Source: a bacterium
Lineage (GTDB): Bacteria > Desulfobacterota > Deferrisomatia > Deferrisomatales > Deferrisomataceae
Assembly (NCBI GenBank): GCA_027021615.1
Contig: JALUTY010000122.1
Coordinates: 1 to 64,000, forward strand
DNA length: 64,000 nt
Direction of reading: 5' to 3'
Shown here piece by piece: positions 17,610-52,912 of the stretch. Each line of letters starts with the position of its first letter. Position 1 is the stretch's first letter. The notes beneath the pieces were generated by a model, which worked only from the letters and a program-made list of their open reading frames with translations, made no database searches and had not been told where the DNA came from. Position numbers and translations under genes: made by a program.

Positions 17610-17651
17610 TACTATTAACCCGGTGACGATAGAGGCGCGCAGGTGGTCGCA

Positions 17652-17855
17652 GGGGCGTGGGGCCTGCTTCCGGCCGTGCGTGAGTGCGGCATCCGGCTTA
17701 CGCTGCCTCCGGCACTCAGCCCCAGGGGATGAAATGCGGCTGAAGTGCGGGCATTTTCGGAGTCCCCGAGGCCGGAAGAGCCCCAAGCGTAGGCTGAGTG
17801 CCGGAGGCGGCGACTGTCGGAGCCACGCCCGGCGCTCCAGCAGGCCCCACGCCCC
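17652..17855. repeat. Nested inverted-repeat element, copy 1 (204 bp)
   Basis: The spacer 17610-18153 has no gene. Outer arms form a perfect 17-bp inverted repeat (17652-17668, ggggcgtggggcctgct, and 17839-17855); inner arms form a second perfect 17-bp inverted repeat (17705-17721 and 17792-17808). The 3' part (ggcgctccagcaggcccc) is shared with the copies at 29748-29935 and 36443-36627. It can fold into one long stem with an internal loop. It is followed by AT-rich sequence and period-7 units (ggagtca, gaggtca, gaagaca) at about 17924-17950 and 18000-18030. Confidence 0.8.
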
Positions 17856-18153
17856 AGAGCGCGTCTATTTAGCCGCCGGAGTAAATAAGTTGTCAGGGTA
17901 CGGGGTGGGGGCCTGGGATTCAGGAGTCAGAGGTCAGAAGACAGAAGTTCGGACAGAGTCCAAAAAATGTGTGGGGCTCTACAAAAGTGGAAGACTTTCT
18001 CCTGTCCACTGAATTCTGACCCCTGATACGGTCGCCCCCGGCTCTCCGACAGGCCCCTTGCCCCTCTGCTCTGGGATTCAATGCCTTTGGACGCGACTTG
18101 GTATGAGTCGCAGGACTGGGGCTGCCACCGCAGAGCCGCCAAGGAGCGTGATC

Positions 18154-29639: not shown

Positions 29640-29747
29640 GGCCGCGTTCCCGGGGAGGGAGGGGGGGAGGGGGGCAAGGGAGCTGCCACTCCCAGCAGGG
29701 GGCGATAGCGCCTGGTTACTAAGACCTTCAAACGTATTGCCAGGGTA

Positions 29748-29935
29748 CGGGGTGGGGGTCTGGTTCCGGCCGGGCGCGAGTGCGGCATCCGATCGCCGCG
29801 CCTTCTCGTGCCGCTGCTTGCGCGTCGATCCAGGCAACGATAGCGGAACCCTTGGGATCCGGAGGCGATTCGGACGTTCGGAGGGCGCGGCGAGCCAAGG
29901 GGCCGCACCCGGCGCTCCACCAGACCCCCACCCCG
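29748..29935. repeat. Nested inverted-repeat element, copy 2 (188 bp)
   Basis: Lies in the 515-bp eno-ndk spacer (29640-30154), which holds no gene. Outer arms are a perfect 17-bp inverted repeat (29748-29764, cggggtgggggtctggt, and 29919-29935); inner arms tcgccgcgcc (29793-29802) and its complement (29884-29893) nest inside. The right half (gcgcggcgagccaa then ccgcac) is clearly homologous to copy 3. The outer-arm sequence differs from copy 1 but stays self-complementary. Confidence 0.8.
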
Positions 29936-30154
29936 CACTCCCCGAGGGGAAGGGGGCACGGGCTTGGCGATACGTCCGTTGGAATTAGTATCCACCGCGT
30001 CAATAGCTTCCTAGCGGAAGATGGAAGTCATGGCAGCAGCTTCCCGCCGGCCCCGGTCCGCCGGTCGGTGGGGGGAGAAACGAGACGGCGCCCCGGCCTC
30101 GGCCGGGGCGCAGGTGTGAACCGGAACCGACATCGAAACGAGGAGGAGTTGCCG

Positions 30155-36405: not shown

Positions 36406-36407
36406 TA

Positions 36408-36735
36408 CCGAGTTGCGTTCAAACCAAGAGTCCTCGTGGGGCGGGGCATGGGGCCTGCTTCCGGCCGCGCGCGAAGCCAAGCATGAGATTCGCCGCGCAG
36501 GCACGGGGCATCAGCGGTGACTTCATGAGAGACCGGCCGGCATGAACGATTCCACGGTGCGAACGTTGGAGGCGCTGCGCGGCGAGCCAAAGAGCCGCAC
36601 GCGGCTCTCCAGCAGACCCCATGCCCCCCGGACCGTGAAGTGAAGGCAAAGAGGCATAGTGATTCCTGGAACGCTTGGGAATCCGTTGGGTTTTCAAATC
36701 TCATAGCATCCCAGCCTCCCAGCGGGCCGAAGGCC
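36408..36735. repeat. Nested inverted-repeat element, copy 3, with flank and octads
   Basis: Covers most of the 399-bp spacer 36406-36804, which has no gene. The flank ccgagttgcgttc (36408-36420) is shared with 45336-45348. Outer arms 36443-36459 (ggggcatggggcctgct) and 36611-36627 pair at 16 of 17 positions; inner arms tcgccgcgcag (36490-36500) and its complement (36575-36585) pair perfectly. A tail resembling 45516-45560 follows, then three period-8 units (36700-36723) and GGGCCGAAGGCC (36724-36735). Confidence 0.8.
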
Positions 36736-45255: not shown

Positions 45256-45335
45256 TCGGCCCGCGATCCTGCCTGTTCCAAGGGTGGCGGCGCGGTACAA
45301 TGGGAACCCGCAGGGCCATGGGTTTCCCACTCATG

Positions 45336-45610
45336 CCGAGTTGCGTTCCAGCCGAGACCCTGCTGGGGCGGGGCATGGGCTTCAGTAGACGGATTTCAGG
45401 GGACAGAAGCCAGAAAAAGGGCAAAGGCACTGTGGCCAAAGCGACGTCGTGGGACCACGGCCCATCCGCTGACATCTGTCCTCTGCCCCCTGATCCCCAT
45501 TCCTCCCGAGATCATGAGGTGACGCCAAAGAGGCGTGGTGATGCTTAGAACGCTGGGAGATCATGGAGGTTTTTAAGCCTCCCAGCGTCCCAGCCTCCTA
45601 GCATCCTAGC
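45336..45610. repeat. Degenerate copy of the inverted-repeat element plus octads
   Basis: Within the 385-bp spacer 45256-45640, which has no gene. ccgagttgcgtt (from 45336) and gcggggcatggg (ending 45379) match the left end of the 36408 copy, and gccaaagaggcgtggtgatg with aacgctgggag matches its right flank, but the middle is replaced by period-7 sequence (cagaagc, ctgacat, ctgtcct, ctgcccc). Five period-8 units (ttttaagc, ctcccagc, gtcccagc, ctcctagc, atcctagc) run from 45571 to 45610. Confidence 0.7.
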
Positions 45611-52692: not shown

Positions 52693-52912
52693 CTGGAGAC
52701 TAGAGACTGGAAACTAGAGACTAGAGAAATCTTGGGGACCTCGGCCCGTTGGACGAGTGCTCCGGCAGGCCCCATGATCCCCGGACTGTGAGGTGGAGGC
52801 GAGGAGGGATGGGGATGCCGAGAGCGGGTGGGGATCCTGGAGGCCTTCAAGCCTTCTAGCCTCCCAGCCTCCTAGCTTTCCAGCTTTTGAGCCTTCCAGC
52901 GGGCCGAAGGCC
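52693..52912. repeat. Composite spacer repeat: heptads, element fragment and octads
   Basis: Fills the 267-bp TVP38-MoaD spacer. Five CTAGAGA-type heptads (52693-52727) are followed by the aatcttggggacctcgg tail shared with 28243-28304; then the right end of the inverted-repeat element (gctccggcaggccccatg, from 52752); then seven period-8 units (52845-52900) and GGGCCGAAGGCCC. This is the longest octad array here. Confidence 0.75.

Follow-up and report, generated by a model that had tools for sequence, protein, structure and literature searches.

The repeats of this stretch of DNA are a previously undescribed group of small non-coding MITEs, confined to one Deferrisomatales family and probably moved by IS630-type transposases. 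With a probability of roughly 88%, and judging from their sequence features, we predict that they are non-autonomous IS630/Tc1-mariner-type MITEs with a palindromic core that would be mobilised in trans. They showed the features expected for such elements: they are short, non-coding, and present in many interspersed copies, their TIRs match those of autonomous IS630 elements (classes T2 and T3), and they carry a TA target duplication.

Copies in the window and the complete element

The window (the whole stretch of 64,000 nucleotides that was analysed) contains three intergenic copies of a structured core with outer arms, at 17652..17855, 29748..29935, and 36443..36627, all on the minus strand. 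An earlier sequence-only reading had placed them at exactly these coordinates. It had also proposed a covariance-model search, and our model R1, built from alignment A1 of 38 diverse copies, picked out these three copies and no others in the window, with 161.9, 150.4, and 143.3 bits on the minus strand. The copies are members of three subfamilies (A, B, and C, in that order) of one large family. RNA folding of the core strand gave z = -7.4, -5.2, and -5.1 for copies 1, 2, and 3, with 0/200 shuffles as good. The matching arms that had been described were present too: the 16-bp outer arms pair at 16/16, 16/16, and 15/16 positions, and each copy has a different arm that its partner follows.

The 17-bp outer repeat of that reading is real, but it is not the outermost part. 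The elements reach ~30-40 nt further per side, to the true TIRs, and the unit of the 17652-17855 type is the middle portion of an element of ~275 bp. Copy 1 as a whole element spans 17613..17887 on the minus strand, with T3-class TIRs (the IS630-II ends) matched at 17613-17639 and 17860-17886 and TA flanks on both sides. It is adjoined on the plus strand by an arm remnant of a T2-class element at 17896..17917 (arm match 17901-17917, 2 mismatches), elements being inserted in or beside one another. Copy 2 spans 29717..29990 on the minus strand, also with complete TA-flanked ends, and its TIRs at 29717-29743 and 29964-29990 are of class T2 (the IS630-I ends). Copy 3 was delimited in part on the minus strand, from a T1-class left TIR (36406-36423, 1 mismatch) through the C-type core identified by R1, at 36406..36627, and C-type copies in general were likewise delimited only in part. 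Two further traces, previously noted at 45336 and 52752, were confirmed, though in degenerate form. The first, at 45334..45380 on the plus strand, is a decayed T1-like TIR with 4 mismatches followed by a partial outer arm, and the second, at 52760..52790 on the plus strand, is a lone outer-arm remnant (match 52764-52780, 3 mismatches) with C-type flank. Low-complexity intergenic arrays (GGTCGTCGGTC..., AGGCTGGGAGGCTAGGACGC..., GGGCCTTCGGCCCGCTGGGCGGC) repeatedly flank C-type copies, at loci L057, L061, L064, L071, and L085 and in the window at ~52700-52900.

Inside the outer TIRs, which are flanked by TA, lies the structured core of ~190 nt. On the core strand it runs through P1, an internal loop, P2, linkers, P3, and a variable tip. 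P1 is the outer arm, of at least 16 bp. The internal loop is asymmetric and conserved in sequence (5'-GGAGN / CGGA-3'). P2 is a sequence-conserved basal helix of 11 pairs with a near-invariant terminal G-T pair (200/222 copies), and P3 is an inner stem of 10-21 bp.

The same core was found with at least three TIR classes, namely T1 (TACCAAGTTGCGTTCAAA), T2 (TACTAA...GTATTGCC), and T3 (TATTAACCCGGCG or TATTACTCCGGCGG). One genome had 79 T1 TIR sites and a second had 95, while the reversed control gave 0. Chimeric elements were also seen: L087 combines a C-type end with a T2-type end, and in L195 a single core lies between a T3 and a T1 end. T1 ends additionally bound an unrelated 222-bp palindrome and deletion derivatives of 67-94 bp. 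Examples of this palindrome (221-222 bp) lie at L215:18400-18621 and L216:19346-19566, and a 72-bp deletion derivative lies at L206:13024-13095.

Distribution within the family

The extrapolation of several hundred copies per genome held up. A complete congener genome of 4.24 Mb (G002) gave 51 R1 matches above 50 bits in 800 kb, which corresponds to ~270 per genome, copy counts here being based on searches together with 19% of G002 as a sample. Within the window's own genome (G000), each subfamily has dozens of copies that are 70-96% identical, and each of three DNA queries returned at least 40 scored candidates.

R1 matches were found in 4/4 genomes searched within the family (G000, two congeners, and one other genus), the named relatives with copies being Deferrisomatales MAGs, and they were absent from 55 other genomes, including eight of the same order. 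DNA-pattern matches in unrelated taxa (Frigoribacterium, Alsobacter, Gemmata, Oceanobacillus, Herbaspirillum, and others) were unsupported by the covariance model and are due to chance. Rfam 15, including HEARO, gave no match above gathering and nothing relevant even at E up to 5. In G002, divergent core copies of 66.6 and 21 bits sit amid unusually low GC (0.61) at locus L240 (G002:C1:2264600-2266900).

IS630 elements and insertion at TA

The T2 and T3 ends were traced to two intact IS630-family elements in G002. IS630-I, 1.1 kb long, has T2 ends and encodes an intact transposase of 343 aa containing DDE_3 (PF13358, E=1.6e-41) and winged-helix domains. IS630-II has T3 ends, and its transposase is 39% identical in protein sequence to that of IS630-I. 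Both have TA at their ends, and each is present in three near-identical copies (99.3-99.6% for IS630-I). Both were apparently active recently in this congener. The two elements are sited at L197:9041-10148 (G002:C1 ~2.109 Mb) and L233-L235.

In the window's own genome, no PF13358 match was found, only a 34-aa fragment of an IS630 transposase; with no intact transposase found, current activity in that genome is conjectural. A partner transposase in the same genome is usual for an IS630-type MITE, though not obligatory, and partners are often lost. TIR class T1 yielded no autonomous element. Three T1-bounded stretches of 0.96-1.8 kb were considered as candidates and rejected: the two with ORFs listed were without transposase, and all three contain core copies.

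Comparison of orthologs revealed sites occupied in G000 at which G002 lacks the element. The cleanest comparison is L056 against L220, where GCGTTA-[element]-TACTTCC stands opposite GCGTTACTTCC, with the short target duplication that is expected. At L235, a copy of IS630-II is itself inserted at a TA within a C-type core and is bordered by TA at either end. C-type copies with a comparable ortholog were shared in 4/4 cases, and the C subfamily therefore looks older.

Origin of the paired changes

The paired changes pointed out by the sequence-only reading were recovered across the family. The covariation score was 0.291, against 0.126 +/- 0.007 for shuffled and at most 0.076 for slid alignments, and 91% of cells were paired, against 81% (shuffled) and at most 44% (slid). 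Cells changed on both sides numbered 146 versus 49 +/- 6, but shuffling takes no account of relatedness, and the arm types go with the subfamilies; independent events are therefore fewer than this cell count. In P1, 10/14 pairs change on both sides, and older isolated copies such as L059 retain pairing with a unique arm sequence. The same reading had proposed that a hairpin is maintained rather than the sequence itself, and this contrast was not supported: only the outer (P1) and inner (P3) arms covary, whereas P2 and the GGAG/CGGA loop are conserved in sequence. Within subfamilies, divergence per site was 0.01-0.08 in the loop and P2, a value partly biased by the selection pattern for copies, which covered that part, and 0.09-0.28 in the tip. 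P3, which lies outside the selection pattern, diverged by 0.01 and 0.06 in the two largest clusters.

The arms may have been re-matched by template switching at the palindrome (quasipalindrome correction), with the structure itself unselected. We regard this as a plausible explanation, albeit one that we would not favour on balance. Such re-matching of quasipalindromes has been reported in bacteria (PMC7202029) and yeast (PMC8604942). It is in line with the many recent P1 changes that are two-sided (27, vs. 105 one-sided), with the slippage-type deletions that are common within copies, and with P3, where departures from pairing showed no strand preference (G.U 36 vs. A.C 46). However, it leaves unexplained the sequence conservation of the loop and P2, as well as a wobble bias in P1 and an orientation bias.

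Strand bias and possible selection on the core

Between tandem (same-direction) neighbour genes, the core strand was antisense in 80/102 cases (80:22, p=6e-9), with genes called by a simple codon-composition heuristic. The bias was present in all four genomes and strongest in the C-type cluster (45:9). In G002, the core strand also lay on the lagging-sense strand at 59:24 (p=1.5e-4), the origin being placed by GC skew, consistently with rRNA orientation. Since only 56% of genes in the G002 sample are leading, neither bias produces the other. A difference in strand stability was discarded as the cause, as mean folding energy is equal for both strands. Neither the symmetric TIRs nor the palindromic TA target would lead one to expect biased insertion, and we infer that the orientation bias arises by selection after insertion.

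This bias would also suit a core that codes for a structured RNA, active in trans or in cis (e.g., a protein-binding RNA or a processed leader or trailer), with the covariation reflecting selection on that RNA. Consistent with it, the conserved internal loop sits between covarying helices, the covariance model is clearly strand-polar, and the closing pair of P2 is G-T on the core strand in nearly every copy. Moreover, P1 departures on the core strand favoured G.U over A.C (109 vs. 31 in 120 unique arm pairs), also among recent single changes (47 vs. 25, p=0.013). Taken as strong RNA evidence, the P1 excess is weakened by the P3 count given above. Both strands fold equally, Rfam offered no match, and the copies are antisense to neighbour genes, so read-through would yield the opposite strand. 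Given a wobble bias in P1, none in P3, and equal folding of the strands, selection on the core as RNA is possible only, and we consider the structured-RNA explanation rather unlikely.

A more speculative proposal, which we hold with still greater doubt, is that selection acts on P1-P2-P3 with the GGAG/CGGA loop as an autonomous unit. Several IS630 TIR classes would have captured it for the benefit that its folded form, RNA or cruciform, brings to element survival. If this were true, the antisense placement would reflect the module actively affecting transcription or replication of the host in a strand-specific manner.

Other proposed origins of the core

It is improbable that the core and arms are an independent mobile unit inserting at the centres of palindromic MITEs, the varying arms then being those of the target hairpins. 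Such a unit would fit a core common to three or more TIR classes, and at one orthologous site (L203:975-1055 vs. L012) the outer flanks are indeed kept with core and arms missing. However, that site retains a single CCCGC direct repeat, as a slippage deletion across a palindrome would leave, and this allele is probably such a deletion. In addition, the short T1 elements retain arm remnants, which makes them deletion derivatives, and none of the copies seen had duplicated target sequence at the boundary of the arms.

An origin as REP/BIME-type repeats that depend on a RAYT (Y1) transposase is highly improbable: although G000 has three Y1_Tnp matches, one with a copy ~1 kb away, the full-length Y1 gene locus (L092) is without any copy, the elements are far larger than REP units, and the TA-duplicating empty site and the IS630-matched ends contradict it. 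The sequence-only reading had named a nearby REP-type transposase as a possible sign of a structured or mobile element; mobility was borne out, while the transposase is of the IS630 type (DDE_3) and the elements have TIRs and TA duplications. They are IS630-type MITEs, not REP elements, because their TIR classes match IS630 ends, an empty site shows the duplication, and an IS630 copy lies in a TA. As a separate observation, L092:8-985 (G000:C28) encodes a 325-aa Y1_Tnp protein with a C-terminal DnaA helix-turn-helix match below the Pfam cut-off; the two short ORFs that come after it look like a VapBC-type pair, and there is no repeat copy nearby.

Proposed cycle and comparison with known systems

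For IS630-dependent MITEs with a palindromic core, we propose the following cycle. A transposase encoded elsewhere would bind the outer TIRs and excise the element, which would then insert at a TA and duplicate it. TIRs and core are swapped between elements, which leaves one and the same core with three or more TIR classes. Judging from its conservation, the core may be kept because its folded form has a bearing on element survival, whether as cruciform DNA or as a hairpin of the transcript. The palindrome arms may be re-matched through template switching in replication, and selection presumably disfavours one orientation where the surroundings are transcribed.

In MITEs, the ends are usually kept while the interior varies. 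Here we found the reverse, a conserved structured interior with differing ends, and this allows a direct question: does selection maintain the interior of palindromic MITEs as an RNA or DNA structure, or does replication only homogenise it? Moreover, a bacterial family that has received little study now has its principal dispersed repeat named and linked to transposases, and the 80:22 bias offers a way to approach quantitatively what such insertions cost.

Like REP/BIME sequences, these elements are intergenic palindromes present in hundreds per genome. REP/BIME sequences lack TIRs and TA insertion and depend on a Y1 RAYT, whereas the partner here is a DDE transposase (IS630). Correia/NEMIS elements in Neisseria and ERIC/IRU in enterobacteria are described as TA-flanked, MITE-like palindromes whose folding transcripts can affect mRNA (PMC2229807, PMC3049150). 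Our elements are likewise TA-flanked, MITE-like palindromes; as far as those descriptions go, the covarying multi-helix core and the strong antisense placement set them apart.

The closest likeness is to RUP, the repeat unit of pneumococcus, described as a non-coding, intergenic, strongly folded repeat of 107 bp in ~100 copies, with IS630-like TIRs and TA targets, for which mobilisation by IS630-Spn1 has been proposed (PMC2229807, PMC3049150). Our elements share the non-coding and intergenic nature, the IS630-type TIRs, the TA targets, and the strong folding. Compared by description, they differ in their size of ~275 bp, in a multi-helix core common to several TIR classes, and in belonging to an unrelated lineage. 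Thus, they have the sequence characteristics of IS630-dependent MITEs such as RUP (PMC2229807, PMC3049150), and the multi-helix core conserved across TIR classes sets them apart.
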